Below are positions 13,888 through 53,318 of a stretch of 64,000 nt of DNA, in pieces. The number at the start of each line of letters is the position of its first letter. Position 1 is the first letter of the stretch. This stretch comes from Bacteroidota bacterium. Its GTDB lineage: Bacteria; Bacteroidota; Bacteroidia; Bacteroidales; FEN-979. Both the position numbers and the translations under genes were made by a program. The stretch is from contig JAPLDH010000047.1 in the NCBI GenBank assembly GCA_026391355.1, forward strand, positions 124,001 through 188,000, in the 5' to 3' direction. The notes under the pieces were generated by a model. The model was not told the origin of the DNA and made no database searches. It saw only the letters and a list, made by a program, of their open reading frames with translations.

Positions 13888-13900
13888 TTCTGCGTCCTCC

Positions 13901-28573: not shown

Positions 28574-31299
28574 TTAACCGCTTTTCATCACGTCGCCAAC
28601 CTGTTTCAGAAACCTTTCTGAATGCACGGTTACGACATGCCCAATGCTATGACAGGATCGCCGGCTATTTCTCATCCTCTATTTTAGAGGTGGCTGGAGA
28701 GGCAATTGAGAGTATTACCGGCAAAATCAGACTGGTTTGCAACGCCGAACTGGCACAACGTGACATTGAAACTGCCCGTACCGCAGAAATGGCCGTGGGA
28801 CAGGAATGGCGATTTCATTCAGAAGACAAATTGAACGAACAGGTACAGCCCCGCTTACAACGGCTTTATGAATTACTGAAAAGCGGGAAAATGGAGGTGC
28901 GGGTACTCCCCAATGATGTTTTCGGGTTGATCCACGGCAAAGCGGGTGTAATCACTTTGTTAAATGGTACAAAAACTGCTTTTTTAGGCAGTATCAACGA
29001 AAGCAAAACCGCGTGGAAACTAAATTATGAATTACTATGGGAGGATGATTCGGAAGATGCTATATCATGGGTTCAGGAGGAATTTGACACCCTTTGGGCT
29101 CATCCTAAAGCAGTTCTTCTTGCCCAGGCAGTTGTTGAAGATATTAAGCGATTGGCAAACCGAAAGGTTATCTCCCTCGACCGATGGAAAGAAGGGGATA
29201 TACCCGCAGGAGCAATTGTTGAGACCCCGGTTTATAGAAAGCAATATGGATTATGGGCGCATCAGAAGTACTTCGTAAAACTTGCGTATGAAGAGCATCT
29301 TTGCGGACGGGGTGCCCGTTTTATACTGGCCGATCAAGTGGGACTTGGCAAGACCGTTCAATTGGCCCTTGCAGCCATGTTAATGGCCCTGCATGGAGAA
29401 ATGCCAATTTTGGTTATTGCACCAAAGACATTGATCTGGCAATGGCAGGAAGAAATCAAGAAACTACTTGATTTGCCATCGGCTGTATGGGATGGAAAAG
29501 CCTGGGTTGATGAGAATGAAGTCAGGTATGTTAATGCCAAACCTGAAGATGCGATCATAAAATGTCCAAGAAGGGTTGGCATTATCAGTCAGGGCTTGAT
29601 TATAAGAGGTGGAGCGCTTGTTGAGAAGCTATTGGAGAAGAATTTTGAATGTGTCATTGTAGACGAGTGTCACCGTGCGCGACGCAGGAATTTGCATGCC
29701 GGGTGTGAAGATGAAAACCCTGATCCAAATAGATTGATGGATTATATCCTCCGGATTTCTAAGCAGACCAAAAGTCTGCTATTGGCAACAGCTACACCAG
29801 TCCAACTTTATCCGATTGAGGCATATGATATGGTGATGATGTTGGCGACAGGTTCAAACCATATATTAGGAGATGAGTTAAGTATGTGGAGGAGGCGAGA
29901 TAAAAAGTATATGCTTGACTTGGTTCAAGGGGTACAGGAACAACCCGAAAAGTTTACAGACCGATGGGACTGGATGAGGGATCCCTTCCCTCCTGAATAT
30001 GAGGATGACCGGGTTTGGGGTCACATCCGAAGACAAATCAGATTGCGACCTGTTGATTATCTGGTAACCGGGGATCAACTCAGAAATTTGAAACCTTGGG
30101 ACCGAAAGAAGCTCGAAAACTTTGATGCATTCTTCACAAAAACAAATCCTTTTTTACGACATATTATACGGCGAACGCGGACATTCCTTGAAGAAAACAA
30201 TGACCCGATTACTAATGAACCTTTTTTGAAAAAAGTATCGGTAAAATTATTCGGTGAAGATGATAATGAGGCGATTTTGCTACCGGGTTACCTTCAGGAT
30301 GTTTATACCACAGCCGAAGAGTTCTGCAATTCCCTTGGGGAGATCATGAAATCAGCCGGTTTCATAAGGACATTGTTACTTCGCCGGATGGGAAGCAGCA
30401 TCGAAGCTGGCAGGTTAACTGCATTAAAAATGCTTGGAAAAGATACGACCTATGCAGAATTGACGGAGGAAGATGATGAGGATTTTAAAGATGAGAATAT
30501 TGAAGCAGCAATAGAAGTCGAACAAAAAACGGGAATTAGCGCAAGGATTACAGGAAAAGAACAAGAGATACTACACAGACTAATAGCCCTGCTAGAACAA
30601 AATCAGGAAAATGACCCAAAAGTCAACAGACTTAGAGATTTGCTATTTAAAGAAATGTGGGTAGAATTGGGGTGCATCGTATTTTCGCAATATTATGATA
30701 CTGTTCGTTATTTCTCCAGTATAATAGCAGAAGAACAACCGGACATGCCGATTGCAGTTTATGCTGGTGGAAGCAAATCGGGAATATGGTATCACAAAGA
30801 ATATCAACTCTGCTCAAAGGAAGAGATCAAACAGAAGGTACAATCTGGTGAGATCAAACTTGTTTTTGGAACCGACAGCGCCAGCGAAGGCTTGAACCTT
30901 CAGCGGTTAGGGTCTCTTGTAAATATTGACCTTCCATGGAATCCCACCAGGCTTGAGCAACGCAAGGGACGTATACAGAGAATTGGCCAGGTGCGTGATG
31001 AAGTATTTGTTTACAACATGCGATATCATGGTTCGGTGGAAGACCGGGTTCACCAACTTCTTTCCCAACGACTACAAAATATCAACGCAATGTTTGGACA
31101 GTTACCAGACATTCTGGAAGATGTTTGGGTTGAAGTAGCCATTGGAAATAAGAAAAAGGCCGAGGAGATCATTAATGCAGTTCCGGAACGTAATCCATTT
31201 GAGATTCGTTATGACCGAATCGAGCATGTTGATTTTGAGACTTGTAGTGAAGTATTGAATAAGGAGGAGGTGAAGATGAAGTTGGGAAAGGGATGGTAG
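28570..31299 (+). CDS. PLD-like and SNF2-type helicase of the defence cassette
   Basis: This 909-residue protein has an N-terminal phospholipase-D-like domain: RIAGYFSSSILEVAGEA, IHGKAGVI at residues 121-128, and GSINES at 140-145. The HxKxxxxD motif has lost its Asp (Thr129), so nuclease activity is doubtful. A SNF2-type helicase follows, with ADQVGLGKTVQL (Lys261), DECH (365-368), ATATPVQL and GTDSASEGLNLQ...QRKGRIQRIGQ. It overlaps the methyltransferase by 4 bp. A role in moving on or remodelling invading DNA is likely. DISARM also has SNF2 and PLD proteins, but no DUF1998 gene is present here. Confidence 0.88.
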   Translation: MINRFSSRRQPVSETFLNARLRHAQCYDRIAGYFSSSILEVAGEAIESITGKIRLVCNAELAQRDIETARTAEMAVGQEWRFHSEDKLNEQVQPRLQRLYELLKSGKMEVRVLPNDVFGLIHGKAGVITLLNGTKTAFLGSINESKTAWKLNYELLWEDDSEDAISWVQEEFDTLWAHPKAVLLAQAVVEDIKRLANRKVISLDRWKEGDIPAGAIVETPVYRKQYGLWAHQKYFVKLAYEEHLCGRGARFILADQVGLGKTVQLALAAMLMALHGEMPILVIAPKTLIWQWQEEIKKLLDLPSAVWDGKAWVDENEVRYVNAKPEDAIIKCPRRVGIISQGLIIRGGALVEKLLEKNFECVIVDECHRARRRNLHAGCEDENPDPNRLMDYILRISKQTKSLLLATATPVQLYPIEAYDMVMMLATGSNHILGDELSMWRRRDKKYMLDLVQGVQEQPEKFTDRWDWMRDPFPPEYEDDRVWGHIRRQIRLRPVDYLVTGDQLRNLKPWDRKKLENFDAFFTKTNPFLRHIIRRTRTFLEENNDPITNEPFLKKVSVKLFGEDDNEAILLPGYLQDVYTTAEEFCNSLGEIMKSAGFIRTLLLRRMGSSIEAGRLTALKMLGKDTTYAELTEEDDEDFKDENIEAAIEVEQKTGISARITGKEQEILHRLIALLEQNQENDPKVNRLRDLLFKEMWVELGCIVFSQYYDTVRYFSSIIAEEQPDMPIAVYAGGSKSGIWYHKEYQLCSKEEIKQKVQSGEIKLVFGTDSASEGLNLQRLGSLVNIDLPWNPTRLEQRKGRIQRIGQVRDEVFVYNMRYHGSVEDRVHQLLSQRLQNINAMFGQLPDILEDVWVEVAIGNKKKAEEIINAVPERNPFEIRYDRIEHVDFETCSEVLNKEEVKMKLGKGW

Positions 31300-31733: not shown

Positions 31734-33527
31734 TTAGTATCTCTTTCTGGGAGTGTAGTGGGTATGTAACAGTTCATGTGACTTATGCCCAAGGGGTTCG
31801 CCAAGAAAGTCTTTGTAGATTTCTGCTACTTCAGGGTTTTCATGTGATTTACGGATGGGCATACCCATATCTTCTTCATAGATGGCAGATTTACGTTTTG
31901 CACGGATCTCAGGATTTGTCGGGATGGGTTGACCACCACCGCCAAGACAACCGCCCGGACAAGCCATGATCTCGATAAAATGATAATTGGCTGTACCGTC
32001 CTTTACATTCTGCATAACCCGTTTGGCATGTGCAAGGCCATTGGCGACAACACATTTCAACTCGACACCCTCCAGAAATTTCCATTCTGGTTTCGTTTTT
32101 TCAATTTTAATGGTGGCTTCACGAACTTCACCTTCTGTACCGCGAACAGGAGTGATATTTAATTTTTCAAACGGAACTTCCCGTCCGGTTACGATTTCAT
32201 AAGCGGTCCTGAGGGCAGCCTCCATAACGCCTCCGGTAGTTCCGAAGATCACTGCAGCGCCGGTTGATGAACCCATGATGCTGTCGAAACTTTCATTCGG
32301 TAAGGACTGGAAATCAAGACCTGCCTGTTTGATCATGATGGCAAGTTCCCGGGTAGTAAGCACGTAGTCAACATCTTTATAGCCACTGGATCGCATTTCC
32401 GGTCGATCAGCTTCAAATTTCTTAGCTGTACAGGGCATGACGGAAACCGAAATGATATTCTTAGGATCAACTCCGCGTTTCTGTGCATAATATGTTTTCG
32501 TCAAAGCGCCAAACATTTGCTGAGGTGATTTGCATGAAGAAAGATTCGGCAGTAATTCCGGGAAAGTATGCTCGATGAATTTTATCCATCCCGGTGAACA
32601 GGAGGTAGTCATCGGCAGAGCCACTGTGGTATCTTTGTCAACCAGGACTCTTTTCAACCGGCTGAGCAGTTCATGACCTTCTTCTATGATGGTAAGGTCA
32701 GCAGTAAAGTCAGTGTCGAGGACTGAATCAAACCCGAGGCGTTTCAATGCTGCAACCATTTTCCCGGTGACGATCTTTCCGGGAGGCAATCCCAATGCTT
32801 CACCAAGGGCGATTCTTACAGCAGGAGCAGTCTGAACTACCACATGTTTTGTTTTGTCATATATGGCTTCCCATACCGGGTCAACATAATTCTTTTCTAT
32901 GAGAGCGCCGGTTGGACAGCGGTTTACGCACTGGCCACAATTGGTACATACCACTTCAAACAGAGGGTTTTCGAAGAAAGTGGAGATCTTCATTTTATCG
33001 CCTTTATAAGCAACATCGAGCGCACTAACACTCTGCAATTCTTCGCATGTTCTAACGCAGCGCTGACAACGGATACATCTGCTGTCATCCTTAATGATGG
33101 CAGAATTGAACCGGTCGATGGTATATTTTTTTCCGGGTACAAGATCCAGGAACAAGTGGTCGCCGGTAAGCATTTCTGATGCGAGGAACTGAAGTTCACA
33201 GTTACCATTCTTGTAACATTTTGTACAATCTGCATTGTGTTCAGAAAGCAGAAGTTCAACGATATGTTTTCTTGCCAGACGAACTTTTCCGGTATTTGTA
33301 AAAACCTGCATGCCTTCGGAAGCGGGCATTGCACATGAAGCCACCAGGGTTTTCGAACCGCTGACCTCTACGACACATACACGGCAGTTACCGGCAACGC
33401 ACAAATCTTCATGATAACAAAGGGAAGGTATATGGATATTGGCTTTTCTCGCTGCTGCCAGGATTGTGGTATCTTCCGGTACCGTAACATCGATGCCATC
33501 TATCTGTAATGTTAACTTATTCGCCAT
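31734..33527 (-). CDS. hydA: [FeFe]-hydrogenase catalytic subunit, second operon
   Basis: This 597-residue protein has the same layout as the first hydA. It starts with a [2Fe-2S] domain (SLCYHEDLCVAGNCRVCVVE) and a His-Cys3 cluster (HNADCTKCYKNGNCELQ), followed by two [4Fe-4S] clusters (CIRCQRCVRTC, CTNCGQCVNRCP). The H-cluster motifs are TSCSPGW, MPCTAKKFE and MACPGGCLGGGGQP. It is closer in sequence to the fusion protein at 35835 than to the first HydA (for example the shared DRPEMRSSGYKDVD and CTKCYKNG segments), so those two are recent duplicates. It is the last gene of a hydC-hydB-hydA operon, 19 bp after hydB. Confidence 0.95.
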   Translation of the reverse strand: MANKLTLQIDGIDVTVPEDTTILAAARKANIHIPSLCYHEDLCVAGNCRVCVVEVSGSKTLVASCAMPASEGMQVFTNTGKVRLARKHIVELLLSEHNADCTKCYKNGNCELQFLASEMLTGDHLFLDLVPGKKYTIDRFNSAIIKDDSRCIRCQRCVRTCEELQSVSALDVAYKGDKMKISTFFENPLFEVVCTNCGQCVNRCPTGALIEKNYVDPVWEAIYDKTKHVVVQTAPAVRIALGEALGLPPGKIVTGKMVAALKRLGFDSVLDTDFTADLTIIEEGHELLSRLKRVLVDKDTTVALPMTTSCSPGWIKFIEHTFPELLPNLSSCKSPQQMFGALTKTYYAQKRGVDPKNIISVSVMPCTAKKFEADRPEMRSSGYKDVDYVLTTRELAIMIKQAGLDFQSLPNESFDSIMGSSTGAAVIFGTTGGVMEAALRTAYEIVTGREVPFEKLNITPVRGTEGEVREATIKIEKTKPEWKFLEGVELKCVVANGLAHAKRVMQNVKDGTANYHFIEIMACPGGCLGGGGQPIPTNPEIRAKRKSAIYEEDMGMPIRKSHENPEVAEIYKDFLGEPLGHKSHELLHTHYTPRKRY

Positions 33528-33546: not shown

Positions 33547-34710
33547 TTAGTAAATCATTTCTTCCTTAAAGTTGTTGACGATTGATGAAAACGAGTTGGC
33601 AACAGATTGGCCAAGGCCGCATTTGGCGGTTATTTTCATGGTTTCGCTTAATTTCATTAATTGATCAAGGTAAACGACAGGTTTGTCGCCTCTTTTCACA
33701 GCTTGGATTCCTTTCTTAAGTTGCTGGCAACCTACCCTGCAGGGAGTACACTGACCGCATGATTCTTCTTCGAAGAAATCCAGGTAGTTGTGCAACACAT
33801 TATACATGGAACGAGAACTGTTGAAGATCATCATCGAACCTCCTGTAGGAACACCTTCGAACCCGATAATGGTATCCTTGAACTTTTTCATCGGGACGCA
33901 GAAACCGGAAGCGCCTCCAACCTGAACAGCTTTGGTATCGCCATCTCCGAATTCTTCCACAAAACGGATCAACGGCATGCCCAATTCAAGTTCATAGATC
34001 CCCGGTTTAGGGGTATCACCGGAAACGGAAAACACTTTTGACCCTCTTGAGTCATGTGTACCCAGTTTACGATATTGTACCGGACCGATCCGGCATATCA
34101 TAACAACATTCACGAAGGTCTCAACATTATTGATAACCGTGGGTTTTGAAAGATATCCGGCAACGGTCGGATAGGGGGGTTTGTTTCTTGGCTCACCCCG
34201 TTTTCCTTCCATTGATTCAAACAGTGCACTCTCTTCCCCGCAAATATAAGCTCCGCTTCCCATCCTGATCTCGATGGTAAAGTCAAGCTTCAGCTTCTTA
34301 GCATAGGCATGAAATTCATCCAGTTCTTTTAACAGGTCGGGTAACATAAAACGGTATTCACCGCGGAGGTACATAAATCCTTTTTTTGCACCGATTACTT
34401 TTGCGCAGATAGCCATCCCTGAAAATACTTTTCTGGGAACCCTGGAAAGTATCTCCCTGTCTTTGAATGTTCCTGGCTCTCCTTCATCGGCATTGCATAC
34501 AACGTACTTTTCTTTTACAGGCTGCTCAGCGGTATATTTCCATTTAATCGCGGTAGGGAAACCTGCTCCCCCGCGGCCTCTCAGACCGGAATCAAGAATA
34601 TCCTTAATGATATCTTCATTGGAGCGTTTTAAGCTTTCTTCCAATACTTTATATTTTTCGTCAGAGTATTCTCCGAATATGAGGTCTACTCTTTGAACTA
34701 ATTCTGCCAT
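33547..34710 (-). CDS. hydB: NuoF-like subunit of the second [FeFe] hydrogenase, short form
   Basis: This 387-residue protein contains the NADH/FMN module (SGLRGRGGAGFPTAIKW, GSGAYICGEESALFESMEG) and the [4Fe-4S] ligands (ESCGQCTPCRVG, CGLGQ). Unlike the first HydB it ends there, lacking the C-terminal pair of ferredoxin clusters as well as any N-terminal [2Fe-2S] domain. It therefore resembles the smallest NuoF type. With hydC it forms the diaphorase half. The divergent fusion hydrogenase may use the same diaphorase. A GGAG site lies ahead of its ATG. Confidence 0.93.
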   Translation of the reverse strand: MAELVQRVDLIFGEYSDEKYKVLEESLKRSNEDIIKDILDSGLRGRGGAGFPTAIKWKYTAEQPVKEKYVVCNADEGEPGTFKDREILSRVPRKVFSGMAICAKVIGAKKGFMYLRGEYRFMLPDLLKELDEFHAYAKKLKLDFTIEIRMGSGAYICGEESALFESMEGKRGEPRNKPPYPTVAGYLSKPTVINNVETFVNVVMICRIGPVQYRKLGTHDSRGSKVFSVSGDTPKPGIYELELGMPLIRFVEEFGDGDTKAVQVGGASGFCVPMKKFKDTIIGFEGVPTGGSMMIFNSSRSMYNVLHNYLDFFEEESCGQCTPCRVGCQQLKKGIQAVKRGDKPVVYLDQLMKLSETMKITAKCGLGQSVANSFSSIVNNFKEEMIY

Positions 34711-34732: not shown

Positions 34733-35200
34733 TTATGATTTGTTCATGTATTCAGCGATGATATCATGCACTTTTTCAGGTGTAAGTTCGGTGTACGGCT
34801 GATCGTTGATCAGCATTGCCGGGCTTTTATGACACCATCCAAGGCAGTTGGTTTCCAGAAGTGTAAATTTCTTGTTCTGGGTAGTTTCCCCGGATTTGAT
34901 CTTCAACATATTCTCGAGAGCCTGTAAAATCAATTTTTTACCATGCATATCGCAGGTAATGGTTTTACAAACACGGATTACATATTTACCTCTCGGAACA
35001 GTATCCAGGAAAGAATAAAATGTCGCAGTACCATAAACCTGGGCGGCTGAAAGATCCAGTTCCTTTGCAATATCTGTTAAATCATAATCTGCAAGAAAAC
35101 TTTGTCTTTCAACCACTCCCTGTAGAATGGGCATAAGGCTTGTTCTGCTTCTGCCATACTTTTCTACCAATTCCCTGATTAAATTCCCATTTGGTGACAT
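34733..35200 (-). CDS. hydC: NuoE-like subunit of the second [FeFe] hydrogenase
   Basis: This 155-residue protein has the NuoE thioredoxin-like fold with ligands in CKTITC and NCLGWC. The helical N-terminus (LADYDLTDIAKELDLSAAQVYGTATFYSF) is also typical. It carries electrons from HydB to the catalytic subunit. It is the first gene of the minus-strand operon; the divergent plus-strand pair starts at 35426. A -7 box and a Crp-like dyad lie in the shared region. Confidence 0.9.
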   Translation of the reverse strand: MSPNGNLIRELVEKYGRSRTSLMPILQGVVERQSFLADYDLTDIAKELDLSAAQVYGTATFYSFLDTVPRGKYVIRVCKTITCDMHGKKLILQALENMLKIKSGETTQNKKFTLLETNCLGWCHKSPAMLINDQPYTELTPEKVHDIIAEYMNKS

Positions 35201-35425: not shown

Positions 35426-35845
35426 ATGAAAATAGCTGACATAAATTATGAATTAGCGCTCAAATGGATTTTGTGGCTGATCGCCCTTCATTCAATAGGA
35501 TTTGGCATATCCCTGATTGTGCTTCCGATCTCTGTTATTGAATATTTTGGCTTCGATCTTCAGGAAAAATTCTTTGCAGTACAGGGAGGTGTTTTTCACA
35601 TTGTTGTGAGCCTGGCATATATTATGGCCGCCCTTGACCTTGCCCATTCGAGGAAACTGATTATATTGTCCTGTACAGCCAAATTTATGGCGACGATATT
35701 TTTATTGTCCTATTTCTTCTTTGGCAGACCGATATTTATGGTCATTTTCTCAGGTTTTGCTGACTTTTTAATGGGGTTGGCAATCCTGTTATTATATCTC
35801 CAGTACAAAAAAATGAATCTGAAACCACTTGTAAATGAAAAATGA
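35426..35845 (+). CDS. Small four-helix membrane protein coupled to the fusion hydrogenase
   Basis: This 139-residue protein has four predicted membrane helices (WILWLIALHSIGFGISLIVLP; VQGGVFHIVVSLAYIMAALDL; LIILSCTAKFMATIFLLSYFFF; MVIFSGFADFLMGLAILLLYL). It has no signal peptide and a short basic C-terminus. No family was recognised. Its stop overlaps the start of the fusion gene by 11 bp, so the two are co-translated. It may anchor the fusion enzyme or pass electrons to the membrane. That role is inferred from coupling only. Confidence 0.7.
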   Translation: MKIADINYELALKWILWLIALHSIGFGISLIVLPISVIEYFGFDLQEKFFAVQGGVFHIVVSLAYIMAALDLAHSRKLIILSCTAKFMATIFLLSYFFFGRPIFMVIFSGFADFLMGLAILLLYLQYKKMNLKPLVNEK

Positions 35846-38800
35846 ACTACCTTCAATTGTGATCACAGGCGCCTCCGGGTTCATCGGCAGGCACTTCATG
35901 GATTTTGCCAAAGATCATTTTATTATCTATGCTATAGCCAGGCGTTCGGCAAATGAAGCCGGGATCCATTATCACCCCAACATACACTGGATACAATGGG
36001 ACATAGCTTCTGTGACCAAACTCAAGGAGGTGCTTGAATTTATCAATAAGAAAGGAGGCGCTGACTTTATCCTTCACCTGGCCGCTTTCTATGATTTTGA
36101 TTATGCCGATAATACTGCATATCAACGGACCAATATTGATGGAATGAAGAATGTGGTTGAACTGGCCAGGCAGTTAAAAGTAAAACGATTCATCTTTGCC
36201 AGTTCCCTCGCTGCATGTAATTTTCCCGACCCGGGGGTAATGATTACCGAGCAAACCCCACCTGATGCTGACTTTGCATATGCAAAAACAAAAAAGGCAG
36301 GAGAATTGATGCTCAAGGAGTGTTCCCGGTCATTTCCCTGTTCCGTCATACGTTTTGCAGCCGTTTTCAGTGACTGGTGCGAATATCCACCGTTGTACAA
36401 GTTTCTTACTACATGGCTTTCAAATGGTTATGATCATCGTATACTCGGAGGGAAAGGGGAATCTGCTGTTTCCTATATACACATCAACGATCTCGCCAAA
36501 CTGATCCTCAGCATTATCCGGCAAAGTCACCGGTTGCCATCATATGATATTTATGCTGCCAGTCCTGACGGATCAACTTCACACAAGGAATTATTCGAGA
36601 TTGCAACGAGGGATTTCCTAGGAGAAACCATAAAACCGATCTTTATTCCCAAGCTGCTTGCATATCCGGGGATCTTTTTCCGGATATTGATGGGGGACCT
36701 TGGGATCACCCCCAAGCCTTTTGAACGTTACTGGATGCTGAAGTACGTGGATTTAAAGTTAAACGCGGATGCTTCCTATACACGTAAGGTATTGAGCTGG
36801 CTCCCCTCTCCACGGTATCATGTCACCCGGCGTTTATTATTTATGCTGGCCAGGATGAAAAGTAACCCGCTGGAATGGCATACCAAGAATGAGGCTGCAT
36901 TGAAGCATATTTCTTACCGTACCAACCTTATCATTCATGAATACCTGATGCTTGATAAGGAGAAGATCGTATCAAAGATCAATGCAAGGTTAATGTCGTT
37001 GAATAATTCCCATCTTTTTGCCAATTACCAGCAGATGGACGATCTGCGGTTCAAATCACTTACAAGTACCTTATTCAATATTCTTGCTTCTGCTGTTTAC
37101 AGTTCTGATCACAGTTTGTTGATCAATTACATGGATGACATTGCCATTCCAAGGTTTGCAGAAGGGTTTCCGCCCAGGGAGATCTCCAGCATGCTTACTG
37201 TTTTCAGTGAGGTAATTACCGAAGACTTACTTGCCATCACAGAGTTTAAATTCAAGAAACAGGATCTTTATGACTTTATTGGATTAAATTTTCAGCTTGC
37301 CCAGGATGAGGTGGAAGATAAATTTGAGAACTATGAATTTCCTGAAAAAGATGTCGCTCCCCAGAACAGGGTAAATCTTAAAATCGATGGATTGGCGGTG
37401 AGTGTTGAAAAAGGTACATCCATTCTTGATGCAGCACGACAGTTAAATATTACCATCCCCACATTATGTTACCACAAAGACTTGCAGATTGCAGGGAACT
37501 GCCGGGTTTGTCTTGTTGAGTCAGTTGGTTCAAAGACCCTTGTTGCATCCTGTGCAACCCCGGTTGAAGAAGGCATGGACATACTTACGAACAGTGTGAA
37601 GATCAGGGGGGCAAGGAAAACCATGATCGAGTTGTTGCTTTCGGAGCACAATGCTGATTGCACAAAGTGTTATAAGAACGGAAAATGTGAGTTGCAGGGA
37701 CTGGCATCAGAATTCAAGATCATCTCCCCATATTATCTTGATCTTGTTCCCTATAAAGATTATACAATCGATGACCTTTCTCCTTCTATTATCAAGGATG
37801 ACAGTAAATGTATCCGTTGCCAGCGTTGTGTAAGAACCTGTACGCAGATACAAGGGGTCAGCGCAGTTGGCGTGGCATACAAAGGTCCGGATATGAAAAT
37901 TTCAACCTTCTTCGGACGACCATTGTTTGAAGTGATCTGTACTAATTGCGGGCAGTGTATTGATCGTTGCCCGACCGGCGCGCTGGTTGAAAAAAATTAC
38001 ATTGAGGAAGTCTGGACTGCAATCTGGGATAAAAACAAGCATGTAATTGTTCAGACTGCGCCTGCCGTCAGGGTTGCATTGGGCGAGGATCTTGGTATTG
38101 AACCCGGCAAAAGGGTGACGGGTAAACTGGTTTCGGCCTTACGAAGGATGGGATTTGATTCGGTGCTGGATACGGCATTTTCAGCCGATCTGACCGTTGT
38201 TGAGGAAGGAGCCGAATTTCTTGACCGGTTGAAAAGGAAACTGGTCGATAAAGACCCGAAGGTAAAGATCCCCATGACAACTTCATGTTCCCCGGGATGG
38301 GTCAAGTTTATCGAACAGACTTTCCCTGAATGCCTGTCAAATTTGTCTTCGTGCAAATCTCCGCAACAGATGTTCGGAGTATTGGCAAAGACCTATTATG
38401 CTCAAAAAAGAGGTTTAAAACCGGAAAATATTGTCACGGTTTCAATTATGCCGTGTACTGCAAAGAAATTCGAGGCTGATCGTCCTGAGATGCGTTCCAG
38501 TGGATACAAGGATGTAGATTTTGTACTCACCACCAGGGAACTTGCCATCATGATCACCCAGGCAGGCATAGATTTTAATTCACTTCCCAATGACCATTAT
38601 GACAGTTTGATGGGGGAAGCTACCGGGGCTGGAGTTATCTTTGGGGCTACCGGCGGTGTTTCTGAAGCAACCCTCCGGACAGTTATCGAGAAAGTGACCG
38701 GGCATGAGGTTCCCTTTGAAAATCTTGAGATCACACAGGTCAGGGGCTTGGAAGGTATCAAGGAGATGAGTTTTCTGATTGAGGATACCGTTCCCGAATA

Positions 38801-39146
38801 CCGATTCCTGGAAGGAGTAGAGCTCCGTGTTGCCGTTGCAAATGGATTGGCAAATGCAAGGAAGATCATGCAGGATGTCAAAGACAAAAAATCGCCCTAC
38901 CATCTTATTGAAATTATGGCATGCCCGGGAGGTTGTATCGGGGGCGGTGGCCAACCGATTCCTACCAACGCTGAGATCCGCCAAAAACGAATGCAGGCTC
39001 TTTATGCAGAAGAAAGTGGGCTTGAATTGCGGAAAGCGCATGAAAATCCTGAAGTGATTATGGTCTATGAGGAGTTCCTTGGAGAACCGCTTGGGGAGAA
39101 AGCGCATGAGTTACTTCATACGCAGTACCTGAAGAGGATCATTTAA
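35835..39146 (+). CDS. Epimerase/helical-domain/[FeFe]-hydrogenase triple fusion
   Basis: One uninterrupted frame of 1103 residues joins three parts. Residues 1 to about 335 are an extended SDR (NAD-dependent epimerase/dehydratase) with GASGFIG (12-18), FASS (121-124) and the catalytic YAKTK (Tyr149, Lys153). Residues about 350-500 are an all-helical domain resembling RsbRD-type sensor N-termini (FKSLTSTLFNILASAVYS...FPPREISSMLTVFSEVI). Residues about 511-1103 are a complete [FeFe] hydrogenase with [2Fe-2S], His-Cys3 and two [4Fe-4S] clusters. Its H-cluster motifs are TSCSPGW (Cys818), MPCTAKKFE (Cys874) and MACPGGCIGGGGQP (Cys1030, Cys1034). No ATG precedes the hydrogenase part closely enough to make it a separate gene. 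No diaphorase gene follows it. Function unknown. Confidence 0.9.
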   Translation: MKNELPSIVITGASGFIGRHFMDFAKDHFIIYAIARRSANEAGIHYHPNIHWIQWDIASVTKLKEVLEFINKKGGADFILHLAAFYDFDYADNTAYQRTNIDGMKNVVELARQLKVKRFIFASSLAACNFPDPGVMITEQTPPDADFAYAKTKKAGELMLKECSRSFPCSVIRFAAVFSDWCEYPPLYKFLTTWLSNGYDHRILGGKGESAVSYIHINDLAKLILSIIRQSHRLPSYDIYAASPDGSTSHKELFEIATRDFLGETIKPIFIPKLLAYPGIFFRILMGDLGITPKPFERYWMLKYVDLKLNADASYTRKVLSWLPSPRYHVTRRLLFMLARMKSNPLEWHTKNEAALKHISYRTNLIIHEYLMLDKEKIVSKINARLMSLNNSHLFANYQQMDDLRFKSLTSTLFNILASAVYSSDHSLLINYMDDIAIPRFAEGFPPREISSMLTVFSEVITEDLLAITEFKFKKQDLYDFIGLNFQLAQDEVEDKFENYEFPEKDVAPQNRVNLKIDGLAVSVEKGTSILDAARQLNITIPTLCYHKDLQIAGNCRVCLVESVGSKTLVASCATPVEEGMDILTNSVKIRGARKTMIELLLSEHNADCTKCYKNGKCELQGLASEFKIISPYYLDLVPYKDYTIDDLSPSIIKDDSKCIRCQRCVRTCTQIQGVSAVGVAYKGPDMKISTFFGRPLFEVICTNCGQCIDRCPTGALVEKNYIEEVWTAIWDKNKHVIVQTAPAVRVALGEDLGIEPGKRVTGKLVSALRRMGFDSVLDTAFSADLTVVEEGAEFLDRLKRKLVDKDPKVKIPMTTSCSPGWVKFIEQTFPECLSNLSSCKSPQQMFGVLAKTYYAQKRGLKPENIVTVSIMPCTAKKFEADRPEMRSSGYKDVDFVLTTRELAIMITQAGIDFNSLPNDHYDSLMGEATGAGVIFGATGGVSEATLRTVIEKVTGHEVPFENLEITQVRGLEGIKEMSFLIEDTVPEYRFLEGVELRVAVANGLANARKIMQDVKDKKSPYHLIEIMACPGGCIGGGGQPIPTNAEIRQKRMQALYAEESGLELRKAHENPEVIMVYEEFLGEPLGEKAHELLHTQYLKRII

Positions 39147-39260: not shown

Positions 39261-39764
39261 TCAGGTTTCTGATTTACAAGCGATCAGTTCAGTGAGTAGT
39301 TTGTCCACATCTTCAAGTATCTGAGGATATTTGTCTTCCAATTCCCTGGTCAGCGAAGTACTGAAGTAGAGATCTTCTATGATCTCAATGGCTATGATGT
39401 CGATATCCTCGGGGATCTTTACGCCGATCTTTTTGCCCAATTGAAGCGCCAGCAGGAAACTGGCATCATGCAGGTTGGAGAGATGGAGTGTCTCTTTGAA
39501 ATCGGAAGGGGAGAAGTGATATATGCTTCCCGGAATTCCGTCTTTGGTGCGGATGGCGTCGATGAAGATCACTTTTTTGTACCCATCGATCATTTCAACA
39601 ATCTCCAATCCTCCAAGGAAGGCTGTCTGAAATTTCAGGGGAATAGGGTATGATTTTCTCTGGAGATCTCCGACCAGTTTTGGCCCGATCCCATCGTCAG
39701 TAAGGTGTTCATTACCAATACCCATAATGAGTATCTGATTCTCCCGGTCTTTGCATCTATCCAT
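39261..39764 (-). CDS. [NiFe]-hydrogenase maturation protease
   Basis: This 167-residue protein has the family's opening ILIMGIGNEHLTDDGIGPKLV. The nickel-sensing Asp region is DDG, and the second conserved segment is YKKVIFIDAIRTKDGIPGSIY, with a later HDASFLLAL. These proteases cut the C-terminal tail of the large subunit after nickel insertion. It is the last gene of the operon, 23 bp after mvhA, whose 26-residue tail is its likely substrate. Confidence 0.88.
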   Translation of the reverse strand: MDRCKDRENQILIMGIGNEHLTDDGIGPKLVGDLQRKSYPIPLKFQTAFLGGLEIVEMIDGYKKVIFIDAIRTKDGIPGSIYHFSPSDFKETLHLSNLHDASFLLALQLGKKIGVKIPEDIDIIAIEIIEDLYFSTSLTRELEDKYPQILEDVDKLLTELIACKSET

Positions 39765-39787: not shown

Positions 39788-41251
39788 TTATCCTCTTCGG
39801 GTAGTTTGAAGGAGTTCACCTTCCTGGTTACGAACATTCAGTACCATTCTCATTTGTCCGGGCAGTGAATGGGTAGCACAGGAAAAACAGGGGTCGTATG
39901 CACGGAAGGCCATTTCTATCATATTCTGGGTTCCTTCAGTTACCGGCATGTTCTTTTTTATCAATCCCTGAGCAGCTTTTTTGATGGACATGCAGATGGC
40001 TGCATTATTATTCGTGGTTCCGACGATAAGGTTAACCTTCGTAACCATGCCTTTAGAGTCCGTCCAGTAATGATGGGTCAGGGTTCCACGCTGTGCTTCA
40101 ACAGTTCCGACTCCTTCTCCAACAATTTTCCCAAGAGGGGCGCGAAGTTCCGTGCCCGTGATATCCGGATCCTGTGCCAGTTCAAGGCAATGCTCTGCAG
40201 AATAGATCAGTTCAACCAAACGTGCCCAGTGCATAGCGAGGGTAGCATGTACCGGTTTACCACCGAGTATTTTGTACATGGCTTCGTATTCCTTCTGTGC
40301 AATCGGGGTGGTCATTCCGTCGGCTGCATTCAGCCGTGAAAGTGGAGTGGCCTGGTAAACACCTGAATCCTGCCCATCGATAAATCCTTTCCATCCGATC
40401 TTTTTCAGATACGGGAATTTCAGGTAACTCCAAGGTTCCACTCGTTCTTCAACATATTCCATATAATCACGGGGGCTGTATTTATAGAGTTCTTTACCTT
40501 CCGTATCTACAACCCTCACTTTTCCGTCATAGAAATTTACCTTGTTATTCTCATCCACCAGTCCCATTGAATGGAGCTTGAGTGAATAAGGGCCATTCAG
40601 TATGATATCGACATAATCTTTATTACCGAGTACAACATCCTGGAAAAGCTTCATGGAGAACTTTCCGAATTCTATAAACCCTTCTGCTTTTTTTACAATA
40701 TCATCCCTTTGCTCCTCCGTAAGTCCTTTTTTAACACCACCCGGGATGTTCATGACTACATGGGTTTGATGTCCACCCAGTAATGCCTGGATCTCCTGGG
40801 CAATCCGGCGTTGTTTGATGACCTCTTTTCCGATCTCAACACCCACCTTGTTAATAACGCCTAAAAGGTTTCTTTCAGCAGCGGGGGCAGTAGGTCCGAC
40901 CACGAAATCAGGAGCGGCAAGGGCATAAAAATGGGCGATATGGCTGTGAACAAAGTGGGCCATATAAAACAGTTCCCTGAGTTTCTTTGCGGTAGGAGGC
41001 GGTTCGACACCAAAAACTGCGTCAATGGCTTTACCGGAGGCCATATGATGACATCCAGGACATACACCGCAGATCTTGGTGACGATGCTGGAAAGCTCCT
41101 CCACGGGTCGTCCTTCACAGAATTTCTCAAAACCTCTTAATTCGGGAACCTGGAAATAAACATTGTTGACATCCCCGTCATCATTAAGAAATATTTCGAT
41201 TTTTCCATGTCCTTCGAGACGTGTAATAGGGTCAATAGTGATTTGTTTCAT
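39788..41251 (-). CDS. mvhA: [NiFe]-hydrogenase large subunit (MvhA-like, group 3)
   Basis: This 487-residue protein has the N-terminal nickel motif ICGVCPGCHH (Cys61, Cys64) and the C-terminal motif DPCFSCATH (Cys455, Cys458). The PITRLEGHGKIEI start is typical of cytoplasmic group 3 enzymes. After His461, 26 residues remain that would be removed on maturation. It lies beside MvhG and MvhD and not beside NuoEF-like genes, so an Mvh-Hdr type (group 3c) is the best fit. Its ATG overlaps the mvhG stop by 4 bp. Confidence 0.93.
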   Translation of the reverse strand: MKQITIDPITRLEGHGKIEIFLNDDGDVNNVYFQVPELRGFEKFCEGRPVEELSSIVTKICGVCPGCHHMASGKAIDAVFGVEPPPTAKKLRELFYMAHFVHSHIAHFYALAAPDFVVGPTAPAAERNLLGVINKVGVEIGKEVIKQRRIAQEIQALLGGHQTHVVMNIPGGVKKGLTEEQRDDIVKKAEGFIEFGKFSMKLFQDVVLGNKDYVDIILNGPYSLKLHSMGLVDENNKVNFYDGKVRVVDTEGKELYKYSPRDYMEYVEERVEPWSYLKFPYLKKIGWKGFIDGQDSGVYQATPLSRLNAADGMTTPIAQKEYEAMYKILGGKPVHATLAMHWARLVELIYSAEHCLELAQDPDITGTELRAPLGKIVGEGVGTVEAQRGTLTHHYWTDSKGMVTKVNLIVGTTNNNAAICMSIKKAAQGLIKKNMPVTEGTQNMIEMAFRAYDPCFSCATHSLPGQMRMVLNVRNQEGELLQTTRRG

Positions 41252-42234
41252 ACAACTTTCCTCCTTAATATTGAACCGGGAAGACTGAAGCGGTAAAAGA
41301 GCCCGGCTGGATCGACAATATCTTCAATGATCTTTGAAATTTCCTCTTCAGAATTGGAATCGATCATCGTTCCGATGGCCGATATCATTTTGGCGCCCGG
41401 ATCAGAAGAAGTGGACGGAGGCCCGTAACATCCGCGGCAGGGAGAATTTCCTTCCACGCACCTCACTCCACATCCCCCGCGGGTAGCCGGCCCCATGCAG
41501 ATGACTCCCTGCTCAAGAAAACAGGTTACCTTGTCATCCTGGATTTCCCAGGGACGATAAAACTTCTTTATCTTTTTATTTTCCGATTTAGTCCGCTTGC
41601 ATTCGTCGCAGTTGGTTTTCTCCAATGCTCCAACAACTGTGCCTTTCGGTGGGAGTGGTTTACCCGAAACGACCAGGGAGAACACCTCGACCAGCCGTTC
41701 ACTCTGCGGAGGGCAGCCGGGAATGTAATAATCAACATCCACCACCTGGTCCAGGCAACGGACCGTATTATATAAATGGGGGATTGTCAGTTTCCCTTCG
41801 GGCACCTTCACTTCCGTGAGGGGACGGATCTTTTCCGGGTTCAGGGTGGATTCTGATTCTTCGTACACCCTTCTCAAAAGATCTTCCTTTACGGTAAAAT
41901 TGGCCAGACCGGGAATTCCTCCCATGTATGCACATGAACCATAAGCAACAAGGATCTTGGATTTCTTCCGGAGAAGTTTCGCTATATGTTCATTCTCACT
42001 GTTTCGCACAGCTCCGTTGAACAAGGTCAGGTCGATATGACCATCCGGCATGGCTTCAACATCCTTGTATTTAATATCCAATGCAATCGGCCAGAACACG
42101 AGGTCTGCTGCTGCAACTATGTCAAGTACCTTCTCGTGTACGTCCAGTACGGAGACACAGCACCCGCCACAGGCAGATCCCCAGTAAATGGCCAGGTTCA
42201 GCTTGGGTTTCTGATTGGTGGTTTCGTTCGACAT
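41248..42234 (-). CDS. mvhG: [NiFe]-hydrogenase small subunit (MvhG-like)
   Basis: This 328-residue protein begins with the proximal-cluster pattern YWGSACGGCCVSVLD and continues with VAYGSCAYMGGIPG and YYIPGCPPQ. The C-terminal part carries further clusters (CDEC, CFLEQGVICMGPATRGGCG, CRGCYGP). No Tat signal is present, so it is cytoplasmic. It transfers electrons from the nickel site to MvhD and HdrA. It sits between mvhD (11 bp away) and mvhA (4-bp overlap). Confidence 0.92.
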   Translation of the reverse strand: MSNETTNQKPKLNLAIYWGSACGGCCVSVLDVHEKVLDIVAAADLVFWPIALDIKYKDVEAMPDGHIDLTLFNGAVRNSENEHIAKLLRKKSKILVAYGSCAYMGGIPGLANFTVKEDLLRRVYEESESTLNPEKIRPLTEVKVPEGKLTIPHLYNTVRCLDQVVDVDYYIPGCPPQSERLVEVFSLVVSGKPLPPKGTVVGALEKTNCDECKRTKSENKKIKKFYRPWEIQDDKVTCFLEQGVICMGPATRGGCGVRCVEGNSPCRGCYGPPSTSSDPGAKMISAIGTMIDSNSEEEISKIIEDIVDPAGLFYRFSLPGSILRRKVV

Positions 42235-42245
42235 TCTATGACTTA

Positions 42246-42671
42246 TTAAGATTCGACTTCAAGTGTACTTTTAACTTTACTTGGACCAAGTGTGAGAAGG
42301 GTTTTGGTCATATTATTTACGAGTTCGGCAAATTGTTTTCCTTCGCTGGCGCTGATCCACTCGAGTTTGATACGGTCTTTTTCTATCCCCATTTGCTCTA
42401 TATATTTCTCGATCAGCCTGAATCTGCGCAGGCATTTGTAATTCCCTTCCTGATAATGGCAGTCACCAGGATGGCAACCGCAAACAAGTACGCCATCGGC
42501 TCCTTCCTTAAAAGCTTTTAGGATAAATGTAGGTTCAATCCGACCCGAACACATGATCCGGATTACTCGGATGTTGGGCGCATAGCGCAAACGGGATGTA
42601 CCTGCCAGGTCAGCGCCGGTGTATGCACACCAGTTGCATAAAAAAGCGACGATTGTTGGTGAATAACTCAT
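42246..42671 (-). CDS. mvhD: MvhD-like hydrogenase iron-sulfur subunit
   Basis: This 141-residue protein has the MvhD pattern: [25 protein letters not shown], and [18 protein letters not shown]. The Cys residues at 12, 15, 41, 64, 66 and 71 can hold a [2Fe-2S] cluster. MvhD links the hydrogenase to HdrA. It starts 2 bp after the stop of the second hdrA, which is consistent with that partnership. Confidence 0.92.
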
Positions 42672-42673
42672 GG

Positions 42674-44407
42674 TTAAAATCCTTTATATGACATTGACAT
42701 GATTCCTTCGATTTCCGAGATGATCTGAAGGTCGGTAAAATGTTTGCTTGTAATCGCTCCTGCCGGACATGTACCACCGCAGGTGCCACAGCCTTTACAG
42801 AGAACTTCATTGACCTCAGAAACTTTCTTTTCTTTGTTGTAGGATATTGCTGTATAAGGACATACGCTGATACAAGTCTGGCATCCGCAGCACATTTTTT
42901 CGTTTACAAAAGCGGTCGTAACCTCGACGGGACAGGTGCCTGTGGCGATTGTAGCCAGGATCCTTGCCGCCGCAGCTTTGGCTTGGGCCACCGAATCAGG
43001 AATATCCTTTGGTCCCTGGCAGGTCCCTACAATATATACACCGCCGGTTGTCGTTGCTACCGGATCCAGTTTAGGATGTTTTTCAATAAAGAACTGGTTA
43101 CCGCAAAGGCTTACACCGATGGCGCGTACCACTTCCTTAACATGATCGACGGCTTCCATATTGACCATCAGGATGACCATATCCACAGGAACTTCGATTG
43201 ATAGGCCAGAAAGCTTCTCATCCATTTCAATGATCATGTTGCAGTCGTCATTACGGTCAGCCTCCCTGATCCTGGGAAGTCCGTCCTGCTGATCGAACAT
43301 CAGGAAGATGATCTGCTTATGGGTTGTAAGGGCATAGAACTCCTCATGACCTTTACCATAGGCCCTCATATCGGCATAAACCTCGAAAATGTTTGCTGAA
43401 GGCAGGGCTGCACGGATCTGATGGACATATTTCAATGCTACCATGCAGCAGGTCCGCGAGCAATATTCATGGTAATTTTTATTCCGGCTTCCGACACAAT
43501 GAATGATGGCAACATTCCGGGGCTCTTTACCGTATTTTGTAAAGATCTTCCCTTTGGAAAGCATTTCTTCAAACTCTATGGATGTAACTACATCCGGGAA
43601 TTTACCGTAACCGTATTCTGTGATCCCGGAAGGATCGAAAGGTTTCAAACCCACTGCAGCAATGATATTACCAAAAGTGAGTTTGGCCGGTTCATTTCCA
43701 TTGACCTGGATAGTGGTTGTAAAATTACCGATATAACCTGACACATCAGTGATCTGTGTGTTCAGGAAGACGTCGATATTGGGATGGTTCTCCACGCGTT
43801 GAATGATGGGCCGCATCATCTGCTTGGAGCTGGAAAGATGTGGAAAAAGAAGATCGAATTTAGCCACATGACCACCCAGACGGTCGGTTTTTTCTATTAG
43901 GTAGACTTTTTTTCCGGCATTTCCGATTTCAAGTGCAGCAATCATTCCCGATACTCCTCCTCCAATGATCAATGTGGCGGGATCGACGCTGACAGAGCGC
44001 TTTTCAAGCGGTTCATGAAATTCAACACGCCGGATTGCGGCAATCACCAGGTCGATGGCTTTTCGAGTAGCTTCCGACCGATCGGTATGAACCCAGGAAT
44101 CCTGTTCCCTGACATTGGCCATCTCGAAAAGATAGGGATTGATCCCCGCTTTTTCACAGGCTTTCCGGAAGGTGAGCTCATGGATCCGGGGGGAGCAGGC
44201 TGCTACTACCACCCGGTTAAGATGATGTCCCTTGATGTCCTTGATGATCAACTCCTGTCCGGGATCGGAACACATATATTTATAGTTCTTGGCGAGTACC
44301 ACATGCGGGAGTTTGCTGACTTCCTGAGAAACCGCTTCCACATCAACCATCTTGGAGATGTTGGTTCCGCACCAGCACACATAAACGCCTATTCTTGGTT
44401 CTTCCAT
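42674..44407 (-). CDS. hdrA: HdrA-like flavoprotein, paralogue B
   Basis: This 577-residue protein keeps the HdrA N-terminal Fe-S domain (VCWCGTNI, Cys11 and Cys13; YMCS, Cys46; CSPRIHE, Cys71). It also has the FAD site ([16 protein letters not shown]) and a C-terminal pair of ferredoxin clusters ([24 protein letters not shown]). Where HdrA normally has the internal Cys motif after FP-T-L-D, it has [11 protein letters not shown], with no Cys. It also lacks the internal ferredoxin insert. Paralogue A (45679-47481) has exactly the missing parts. It is followed by mvhD and preceded by a 7-nt-periodic array that fills the gap to the QmoC-like gene. Confidence 0.9.
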
Positions 44408-44411
44408 ACGA

Positions 44412-44537
44412 TTACCATTTACTATTTACCATTTACTATTTACTATTTCAATTACCATTGACCATTTACTAATTCGTGTCACGCGTTACGCGTCACTACT
44501 TTTCCTCTTGCCTCGTACCTGGTGCCTCTTGCCTATT
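44412..44537. repeat. Long 7-nt-periodic array inside the hdr-mvh operon
   Basis: Eighteen heptads run in one register while the word changes along the way. The left part is built of TTACYAT words, the middle of CGYGTYA words and the right of CCTCKTR-type words. The array fills the gap between the start of hdrA paralogue B and the stop of the QmoC-like gene. It shares words with arrays at 1494, 39151 and 49552. Confidence 0.8.
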
Positions 44538-45663
44538 TTGGAACTGCATGTTTTTTAAGTTGATGAAAATATGCAGCAAAAGGCCGGTAAGCCAGATGAG
44601 ACCATTTTGAGAAAGGTACTTCAATCAGGATCATCGGTACAAGGATCGCCATGTGGGCGATATACGAAAAATAAGTGGCCATGGGCATACCATTGATCCT
44701 GAAAATATGGATCAGGATACCTGTAACAACTGTTCCGGTGAGCATGGCAAGAAATAACCAGTCACTCACATGTGAGAATTTGAATTTGATGTCTTTATGG
44801 ATGATACGGCCGATAATTGCAAATCCCAAACCAAACAATAAACCAAAAGTCGCATAATATCCGAGGAGTCGCTGTGGATCATAGAAAGGCAGTATCTCTT
44901 CTGTCTGAAACCATTTAAGAAAAACAACAATTACAATGAACATAATGGTATATCCCGACATAAGGAACCAATGTGAAAGCCAGTACTTTTTATCATCACA
45001 TTTTGAGAATTTCGGCTGAACTGCAAAATTGAAAATTAACAGCCAGAATTCACGGATGTGTACCCATAATGAAACCTTGGTTGTGCTGTTTTTCCAGATG
45101 ATCTTGTAATACATCCTGAAAATATTTGAAATAAGCAGGGAAGCTACCACAAAAGCCATGCTCCAGTCGAATGGTTCAATGATCCCTATTGGAGCAAATG
45201 AATTTACTCTGACACCGCCTTGAGCTGTGAGGGTAGTATCGAATTTTATCCCGAAGGAGGGCAGAATAAACAGGAAGGTGATGACTACAAGGGAGGCAAA
45301 GAAGAGTATGAAACCGAGCTCCCATGTTTCGGATGTATAGAACTTCTTAGATAGGCCTGTCCAATCATACAATGATGTAAGATAGCGTCGGAGTGACATC
45401 ATCAGCTCTCCCGGGTTCGCATCCCTCGGACAGGTTTTGGTACAATCCCCGCAATAGTAGCAGAGCCAAGGCTCCACGCTTGATTCGATGGGTCCTTTGA
45501 GTCCCATCTGCATCAGTCTGATCTTTTTTCTCGGAAAAAGAAACCCTTCTTCTGATAATGGACACATTGCAGTACACGTTCCGCAATGATAACAGGCGTT
45601 CCAGTCGCCAATACCGTATTTGATCAGTTCATTTCTCAGATCGGGTTGAACACGGATACTCAT
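44533..45663 (-). CDS. QmoC-like membrane Fe-S subunit (HdrC-HdrE type fusion)
   Basis: The soluble N-terminal part of this 376-residue protein has two [4Fe-4S] clusters (CYHCGTCTAMCP, Cys24-34; CYYCGDCTKTCP, Cys68-78) as in HdrC. From about residue 110 on there are about six membrane helices, as in the cytochrome-b-like HdrE/NarI part of QmoC. A QmoC-like protein can pass electrons between HdrA-type subunits and the menaquinone pool. It lies between the two hdrA paralogues. The operon has no HdrB (CCG-domain) gene, so heterodisulfide is probably not the substrate. Confidence 0.87.
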   Translation of the reverse strand: MSIRVQPDLRNELIKYGIGDWNACYHCGTCTAMCPLSEEGFLFPRKKIRLMQMGLKGPIESSVEPWLCYYCGDCTKTCPRDANPGELMMSLRRYLTSLYDWTGLSKKFYTSETWELGFILFFASLVVITFLFILPSFGIKFDTTLTAQGGVRVNSFAPIGIIEPFDWSMAFVVASLLISNIFRMYYKIIWKNSTTKVSLWVHIREFWLLIFNFAVQPKFSKCDDKKYWLSHWFLMSGYTIMFIVIVVFLKWFQTEEILPFYDPQRLLGYYATFGLLFGLGFAIIGRIIHKDIKFKFSHVSDWLFLAMLTGTVVTGILIHIFRINGMPMATYFSYIAHMAILVPMILIEVPFSKWSHLAYRPFAAYFHQLKKHAVPK

Positions 45664-45678
45664 GGTTGTTTCTCCTTA

Positions 45679-49524: not shown

Positions 49525-49624
49525 AGGTGACAAGGTGACACGGGAAAAATTAAAAGTCAAAAGTCAAATATCAATAAACAGCAAACTGGAAACAGCAAAC
49601 TGGGAACTGGTCAATGGTAAATGG
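49525..49624. repeat. 8-nt then 7-nt periodic array before hypF
   Basis: Two AGGTGACA octads (49525-49540) are followed, after a short irregular stretch, by ten heptads in one register from 49552 to 49624. The heptads include AAAAGTC, AGCAAAC and TGGTMAA. The last words repeat those at 39208-39257. The array ends about 40 bp before the hypF start. Confidence 0.7.
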
Positions 49625-49664
49625 AAGAACTTTCCTATTTTTACACCTCCATCCGGAAAGTGAA

Positions 49665-52198: not shown

Positions 52199-52208
52199 AG
52201 AGCAGCCA

Positions 52209-53288: not shown

Positions 53289-53318
53289 AAGAATTGATAA
53301 TACAGGGAACCTGAACCG

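Follow-up and report, generated by a model that had tools for sequence, protein, structure and literature searches.

A single open reading frame in a 64,000-nucleotide stretch of a Bacteroidota genome (order Bacteroidales, FEN-979; assembly GCA_026391355.1, contig JAPLDH010000047.1, positions 124,001 to 188,000; hereafter the window) encodes a triple fusion, in which a short-chain dehydrogenase/reductase (SDR) and a helical domain of probable globin-like fold (HEL) precede an [FeFe] hydrogenase, HydA. We propose that SDR-HEL is a control or docking module that is associated with hydrogenases, probably binds NADP(H) and was hard-wired to a duplicated HydA by one fusion, and we put the probability of this reading at about 40%. 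The gene and its parts are as follows.

35835 to 39146, plus strand: triple-fusion gene, SDR, globin-fold helical domain HEL and [FeFe] hydrogenase HydA (group A6), 1103 amino acids (open reading frame, Pfam, NCBIfam)
35835 to 36839, plus strand: extended SDR domain, residues 1-335, with GASGFIG, S124/Y149/K153 and R36/R37 (Pfam Epimerase, conserved residues, model alignment)
36840 to 37358, plus strand: HEL, helical domain, probably of globin fold, residues 336-508, RsbRD_N-like (profile and structure comparison)
37365 to 39143, plus strand: HydA domain, residues 511-1103, with 2Fe-2S and 4Fe-4S relay and H-cluster loops (Pfam, NCBIfam, motifs)

The frame starts with ATG and stays open for 1103 codons without an internal stop. 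Pfam recognizes Epimerase at residues 8-240 (E 1.7e-26) and, in the HydA part, Fer2_4 (511-587), NADH-G_4Fe-4S (594-629), Fer4_Nqo3 (650-717), Fe_hyd_lg_C (735-1038, 4e-96) and Fe_hyd_SSU (1047-1101); the helical stretch of about 170 residues between SDR and HydA is HEL. A preliminary description, made from the letters of the window alone, had already proposed one open frame holding an SDR with GASGFIG, Tyr149 and Lys153, an RsbRD-like middle domain and a hydrogenase with all H-cluster motifs, with no ATG near residue 511 from which a separate hydrogenase could start. The single frame, the SDR residues at those positions, the complete hydrogenase and the lack of a junction ATG in the window gene are all borne out, the nearest in-frame alternatives being GTG at residue 493, ATG at 453 and TTG at 520.

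The same description had suggested searching databases for this domain order. In a survey of 61 genomes, drawn at genus, family and order level, and a later order-level search, the full-length fusion was found as 14 frames in 14 genomes (G000, G001, G002, G003, G006, G008, G010, G011, G016, G019, G026, G027, G031 and G529), which belong to seven genera, two families and one order. A further copy in G021 is truncated by a contig edge. Within the family (43 genomes), each of the 15 matches to the helical domain is a fusion, including a split copy in G022, and no unfused SDR-HEL copy was seen. Two damaged copies were also observed: in G022 (L163:4089-7410) a frameshift near residue 545, inside the 2Fe-2S domain of HydA, splits the fusion, and in G007 (L037:6596-8199) HEL and part of HydA are deleted and the frame is broken, leaving only the SDR and scraps of HydA, as a decaying gene or an assembly error. 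The catalogues of loci (L) and genomes (G) overlap, as with L016/G001 and L026/G529, and their counts are not summed.

Comparison of the window gene with five relatives gave a proportion of nonsynonymous differences (pN) of 0.06-0.34 against a synonymous proportion (pS) of 0.75-0.88 across all three domains, HEL being the least conserved; because synonymous sites are saturated, no dN/dS value is given. Selection thus acts on all three domains. An artefact or chimera is ruled out by the 14 full-length frames, chance reading-through is excluded because the whole frame is conserved in them, and a decayed hydrogenase is ruled out by its conserved ligands and by pN far below pS. It is likewise highly improbable that two proteins are made in practice, through an internal start yielding a separate HydA, or that the reading-through is an artefact of assembly or annotation. 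Such a start could be offered by the in-frame GTG493, which is preceded by aggatgag in the window and in L016, and the damage to the G022 and G007 copies, by frameshift within the HydA part and by internal deletion, could be taken in the same sense. Nevertheless, GTG493 sits in a conserved helix codon and is present only in the nearest of the five relatives compared, being absent from the other four, and the spacing from D491 to the 'IDG/MDG' turn of HydA is 29 residues in nine of ten fused rows (31 in the tenth); the spread of the intact frame over seven genera also speaks for one protein. Promoter and terminator scans gave no signal above that of shuffled sequences.

The fused hydrogenase is, by profile and motifs, a group A6 HydA that stands outside a hydBC operon of its own. 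It scores 844 bits with NCBIfam NF040763 ('[FeFe] hydrogenase, group A6'; cut-off 765) over residues 513-1101, and the window protein carries the L1, L2 and L3 loops as TTSCSPGW, MPCTAKKFE and EIMACPGGCIGGGGQP, respectively. The cysteines of the [4Fe-4S]H cluster (C818, C874, C1030 and C1034) are present in 16 of 16 fused rows, as are the cysteine ligands of the 2Fe-2S and three 4Fe-4S relay clusters, with C545 of the frameshifted row as the sole gap; the 15 unbroken HydA parts retain every cluster-ligand cysteine. The strict L1 pattern is missed by nine of the 16 fused rows, among them the G529 variant FTSCCPAW, and the strict L3 pattern by two (L007 and L163), in each case with the ligand cysteines in place. 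Genes for HydF and HydG, both scoring above their cut-offs, lie elsewhere in the genome. On these features the fused HydA looks catalytic. It resembles HydA1 of the electron-bifurcating enzymes 8a6t and 7q4v, which we take to come from T. kivui and A. woodii, over residues 511-1103, in its cluster cysteines and in its L1-L3 loops, the TSCSPGW of L1 being the same as in 7q4v; it differs from group A6 HydA in its N-terminal SDR-HEL, in being transcribed away from hydCB and in being an extra copy. No second hydB or hydC lies beside the fusion, and the adjoining hydCBA, which has its own HydA, occupies the opposite strand. The fused and the adjoining unfused HydA are 70% identical.

In a tree of hydrogenase halves, the 16 fused rows among 59 group together in a single clade (support 99/95), which points to a single fusion, from a duplicated HydA. 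For this tree L118, the same gene as L162, and the partial second HydA of L163 were dropped, while the hydrogenase half of L163 was retained as 'split'. A tree of the SDR-HEL part (71 rows) likewise unites its ten fused rows (94/69, in 92% of bootstrap trees), with L025 and L033, both Bacteroidota, as the closest unfused relatives (95/61). That the fusion arose separately in family f1 and G529 is unsupported, since the fused rows make one clade for the hydrogenase halves and, less firmly, for SDR-HEL. Fused HydA evolves faster than unfused HydA by branch length, and by pN in two of three pairs (0.18 against 0.11 in L020 and 0.20 against 0.11 in L021); in L016 the fused copy is not faster (0.064 against 0.067). 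Other hydrogenases of this type were noted in the same genome: a second HydABC-type set at 11615-15364 of the window, comprising a HydC-like protein, a HydA 49% identical to the fused one and a HydB with extra 4Fe-4S domains, and a further HydA on contig 34.

Contigs of 84,980 species were scanned for relatives of residues 136-512, yielding 71 loci, nine with the fusion, one broken (L037) and 61 whose frames stand alone or are cut, most of them 500-570 residues long. The records with these unfused SDR-HEL proteins are placed in ten phyla, namely Bacteroidota, Ignavibacteriota, Calditrichota, Marinimicrobia (Fidelibacterota), Krumholzibacteriota, Gemmatimonadota, Zixibacteriota, Acidobacteriota, Thermodesulfobacteriota and Myxococcota. 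A phylum-level draw of 395 genomes returned 12 strong matches (E<1e-20), one of them cut by a contig end; among the other 11 only that of the window is fused. An order-level draw of 393 genomes returned 17, including five fusions. SDR-HEL is an older and widespread protein that predates the fusion; the libraries used recognize in it only an epimerase-type SDR, and the front half of the fusion comes from an uncharacterised family. Two differences set the fused rows apart: position 422 holds R or K in 59 of 61 unfused rows but in not one of the ten fused, and the fused rows lack the C-terminal tail that extends 25-59 residues past HEL in 36 of the 61 unfused ones. Both would fit a covalent linkage that replaces a partner contact.

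The SDR has the TGxxGxxG motif, the Ser-Tyr-Lys triad and the Rossmann fold expected of its family, and all 71 aligned rows agree at S124, Y149 and K153. In a separate conservation analysis near-identical rows had been filtered out (66 of 70 kept), and L019, whose start is cut, was left out of alignment A2. R36 occurs in all 70 rows with a letter at that position and R37 in 69 of 70; NADP-binding SDRs often carry arginines there, and the pair suggests an NADP(H)-type cofactor. A loop after the active site, DWCEY, is nearly invariant (D180, C182 and Y184 without exception, W181 and E183 in at least 90%). The model of residues 1-508 (pLDDT 94.5) aligns to NDP-sugar epimerases and dehydratases at Z 29.6-31.2, best to 6pmh (Z 31.2, rmsd 3.1, 310 residues aligned). 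UDP-glucose 4-epimerase and dTDP-glucose 4,6-dehydratase share with it the extended-SDR fold, the glycine motif and the triad; identity is 16-23% among the matches listed, and the fusion differs in its DWCEY loop, its R36/R37 and its C-terminal globin-fold domain.

These features could be read as metabolic channelling, with the SDR acting as an NDP-sugar-type or other epimerase, reductase or dehydratase whose nicotinamide pool is set locally, via H2, by HydA and HydBC. The invariant triad and the nearest folds would suit such an enzyme, and the DWCEY loop suggests a specific substrate. We nonetheless regard this as unlikely: epimerases and 4,6-dehydratases do not consume nicotinamide, R36/R37 resemble NADP binding whereas the HydA family is named NADH-dependent, sugar-nucleotide families are represented by none of the 25 listed out of 146 neighbour families, and the same SDR-HEL module stands beside Rnf-like genes and other NiFe hydrogenases. 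The preliminary description had offered a related idea, in which reducing power from the hydrogenase would go to a substrate bound by the SDR; little speaks for it. SDRs receive hydride from NAD(P)H, in a chemistry that involves no flavin, and the fusion has no flavin domain that could convert electrons of its Fe-S clusters to hydride; a direct electron path from the clusters to an SDR substrate is therefore not expected.

HEL of the window has no Pfam match above cut-off, the best being HepT-like (E 0.05), and it does not match RsbRD_N (PF14361). That family is, however, the one most often matched by HEL relatives, with hits at E<=1 in 16 of 67 members and a best E of 2e-4, so that the 'RsbRD-like' label of the preliminary description holds as a resemblance of the family and not as a match of the window domain itself. 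A structure prediction for residues 340-510 was also suggested there; the model of HEL alone has a pLDDT of 92.2, and its top Foldseek matches are phycobilin and globin folds, the best at E 6.7e-3 and thus none under 1e-3. The best Z is to VIA 9i1r (14.8, rmsd 2.2, 122 aligned); among the 50 matches listed are also the stressosome sensor 3zta (Z 13.8, rmsd 2.7, 128 aligned, near the level that helical models reach by common arrangement) and the sporulation-inhibitor sensor 3pmc (Z 13.7, rmsd 2.8, 130 aligned). The rank-50 match, at Z 13.4, lies above rank 50 of helical models without a clear relative. The HEL profile retrieved nothing significant from sequences of solved structures (best E 0.27). 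We consider HEL likely to be a sensor-globin-type domain, to which the RsbRD_N matches of its relatives point as well; no stronger statement is made because the best Z is typical of helical models without a clear relative (about 14). A haem-binding globin was considered and rejected: in no HEL column does His or Cys reach a majority, the maximum being His in 31 of 71 rows at residue 349, and canonical haem binding appears unlikely from the alignment. With the RsbR/RsbRD sensor domains (PF14361; 3zta) and the pXO2-61 sensor domain (3pmc), HEL has weak profile similarity and may share a globin-like fold; unlike RsbR/RsbRD proteins, the fusion carries no C-terminal STAS domain in a Pfam scan of the whole protein, and HEL stands between an SDR and a hydrogenase. 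Other Bacteroidota (L164, L166 and L167) encode stand-alone proteins of 134-167 residues with HEL-profile matches at E 1e-13 to 1e-7, arranged in tandem in L166. The layout of genes around such HEL-like or RsbRD_N-like proteins in other Bacteroidota revealed no neighbour pattern, their neighbours not having been family-scanned.

Of the two functional ideas in the preliminary description, a hydrogenase tied to sensing fares better, given the resemblance of HEL to non-haem sensor globins and the sigma-54 activators found within the flank at 15 of the 61 unfused loci, of which eight come from related Marinimicrobia. In its strict form the fused HydA would be a reporter of H2 or redox state, with the H-cluster or Fe-S clusters signalling through the globin-fold domain to a regulator. 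A family scan of 148 of the 243 neighbours of 60 unfused loci, excluding proteins of more than 900 residues, identified Sigma54_activat in 11, the commonest regulators near unfused SDR-HEL; HEL resembles sensor domains of stressosomes and of sporulation inhibitors, and the genome already has a normal HydABC. However, sensory [FeFe] hydrogenases of the HydS type have a PAS domain or an altered H-cluster loop, whereas Pfam finds in the fusion no PAS domain (E<=0.001), kinase or output domain, its H-cluster loops are of catalytic type with L1 as in HydA1 of 7q4v, its relay cysteines are complete, and the activators of cluster c4 were found beside unfused proteins only. A dedicated H2 or redox sensor thus seems quite improbable.

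The genes around the fusion provide a further line of evidence for a hydrogenase-associated role.

35426 to 35845, plus strand: D139, small membrane protein of 139 amino acids, overlapping the fusion start by 11 bases
34733 to 35200, minus strand: HydC (NuoE-like), divergent hydCBA operon (family scan)
33547 to 34710, minus strand: HydB (NuoF-like, 387 amino acids; family scan)
31734 to 33527, minus strand: unfused paralogous HydA, 597 amino acids, the 70% identical copy (Pfam, NCBIfam, comparison)
39261 to 39764, minus strand: HycI-type hydrogenase maturation protease, convergent with the fusion (family scan)
39788 to 41251, minus strand: MvhA-like NiFe-hydrogenase large subunit (family scan), in all 15 fusion genomes of the family
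41248 to 42671, minus strand: MvhG-like (41248-42234) and MvhD-like (42246-42671) proteins (VhuG and VhuD, both below curated cut-offs)
42674 to 47481, minus strand: HdrA-like (42674-44407), QmoC/HdrC-like (44533-45663, QmoC below cut-off) and HdrA-like (45679-47481) proteins, the two flavoproteins being presumably HdrA

The Mvh/Hdr-like set is adjoined by a CRP-type regulator (47638-48351) and by NiFe maturation genes (49614-54344) for HypF, HypD and what we take to be a HypE-like protein. A DUF499 protein, a DUF1156-type methyltransferase and a PLD/SNF2 helicase at 21885-31299, within the hydrogenase region, form a candidate defence set according to PADLOC.

The fusion is linked to, and co-occurs with, the MvhA-type NiFe hydrogenase. 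MvhA (E<=1e-100) is found in 17 of the 43 family genomes: all 15 with the fusion, and two of the 28 others, G007 with its broken copy and G004. Fisher's exact test gives p 9e-10, a value that is too strong because the genomes are related and the genes share a locus. In the outlying fusion genome, G529, D139 and the fusion lie about 4 kb from HycI-MvhA, and the closest unfused HydA is about 25 kb off. D139 occurs in 15 of the 43 family genomes, namely the fusion genomes minus G021 with its cut contig, plus G007. A gene of this type is present at 40 of the 71 loci, including 31 of the 61 unfused ones; this and the other neighbour counts over the loci are lower bounds, contigs often being short. 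H22, Q53, H58, Y65, K86 and D113 of D139 are identical in 41 of 41 rows, and 37 of 40 relatives have three to five hydrophobic stretches by simple hydropathy. The two invariant histidines, H22 and H58, lie in hydrophobic stretches, and D139 might bind haem or quinone.

NiFe-hydrogenase or Rnf-like genes recur near unfused SDR-HEL in several phyla. HycI-type proteases were counted at 24 of the 71 loci, ten fused or broken-fused and 14 unfused, and proteins like the NiFe large subunit at 19. Rnf-like genes (cluster 17 with 18, 21 and 13) are present at five of 61 unfused loci, and RnfC_N in two of the 148 neighbours scanned. At three of four order-level unfused loci (L174, L175 and L177, not L176) genes resembling an NAD-linked hydrogenase set of HydB/HoxU type adjoin D139 or SDR-HEL, with MvhA on the other side at L174 and L175 and only a HycI gene there at L177; in this gene order the Hox-like set occupies the place of hydCBA in the window. 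The names Rnf, Hyb and Hox for these neighbours are in part our own assumption from the translations. At eight Marinimicrobia loci (L043, L044, L046, L048, L049, L051, L052 and L057) two tandem SDR-HEL copies lie ahead of genes for an M54-type peptidase and a sigma-54 activator.

The company of redox complexes and a membrane protein at part of the loci also suits a structural or assembly subunit, in which the SDR, with tightly bound NADPH, would be a non-catalytic accessory of a redox complex. There is precedent in NDUFA9, described in PMC8762328 as an SDR accessory subunit of complex I that binds NADPH at the membrane interface. The parallel is one of working: NDUFA9 is absent among the matches listed from sequence and fold searches, and a purely structural role would have no need of the invariant catalytic triad of the fusion SDR. 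Such a subunit seems rather improbable.

We return to a control or docking module and weigh what counts against it. Many unfused loci show no hydrogenase in the available flank; the five phylum-level unfused loci (L169-L173) have D139 and SDR-HEL, with no gene of hydrogenase label save an HdrA-like match in L171; and nine of the 14 unfused HycI loci are from Marinimicrobia. MvhA is present without the fusion in G004, and since MvhA, D139 and the fusion share a locus, their co-occurrence could in part be due to a single block having been lost or transferred. The G529 fusion sits on a long branch, the single origin of the SDR-HEL halves is moderately supported, and the best Z of HEL is at an ordinary level. 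The invariant triad, finally, suggests that the SDR catalyses a real reaction and is more than a sensor. All of these weigh on the other side.

On this reading, an older accessory protein, often paired with a small membrane protein, was fused a single time, in one order, to a duplicated HydA. The SDR would bind NADP(H) and provide a ligand-responsive or metabolic input, the globin-fold domain would pass on its signal or dock the protein, and D139 may anchor the complex in the membrane. The fused HydA would still produce or take up H2, via the neighbouring HydB/HydC or another Fe-S donor; its 70% identity to the paralogue and its adjacency are why HydBC next door could serve. Fusion would substitute for the step in which unfused SDR-HEL docks with hydrogenase or Rnf partners, and H2 turnover by the extra HydA may thereby be placed or gated beside the Mvh/Hdr-like complex. 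A bolder and doubtful extension is that SDR-HEL and D139 form an unrecognised NADP(H)-reading, membrane-held brake or dock common to NiFe and [FeFe] hydrogenases and Rnf in several phyla. The fusion might then be a 'Rosetta stone' naming the target of SDR-HEL and D139, the latter of which may carry haem or quinone.

Fusions among [FeFe] hydrogenase subunits are not new. Losey et al. (PMC7311640) report enzymes that are NADH-dependent and non-bifurcating, and also fused hydrogenase subunits, including Syntrophus HydAB, a HydC-HydB fusion, and the single-chain hydrogenase of Nyctotherus; as described there, these join subunits together and have no SDR or sensor-fold domain. A review (PMC8924675) treats [FeFe] hydrogenases as modular, and the words 'fusion' and 'fused' do not occur in its main text. 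The preliminary description knew of no such combination, and we found no published description of the SDR-HEL-HydA architecture in the open-access literature, searched by title or start of abstract, which is no proof of absence. Its domain assignment and its sense of an unusual architecture have stood; the older SDR-HEL protein, the extra HydA beside hydCBA and the link to MvhA lay beyond its view.

The fusion is thus a hydrogenase architecture that we did not find described, and it offers a functional lead for the SDR-HEL family. As the fusion fixes the partner, the idea of control becomes testable. Were SDR-HEL indeed to control hydrogenases and Rnf, it would represent a common and unlooked-for control element of H2 and low-potential electron flow in various anaerobes.

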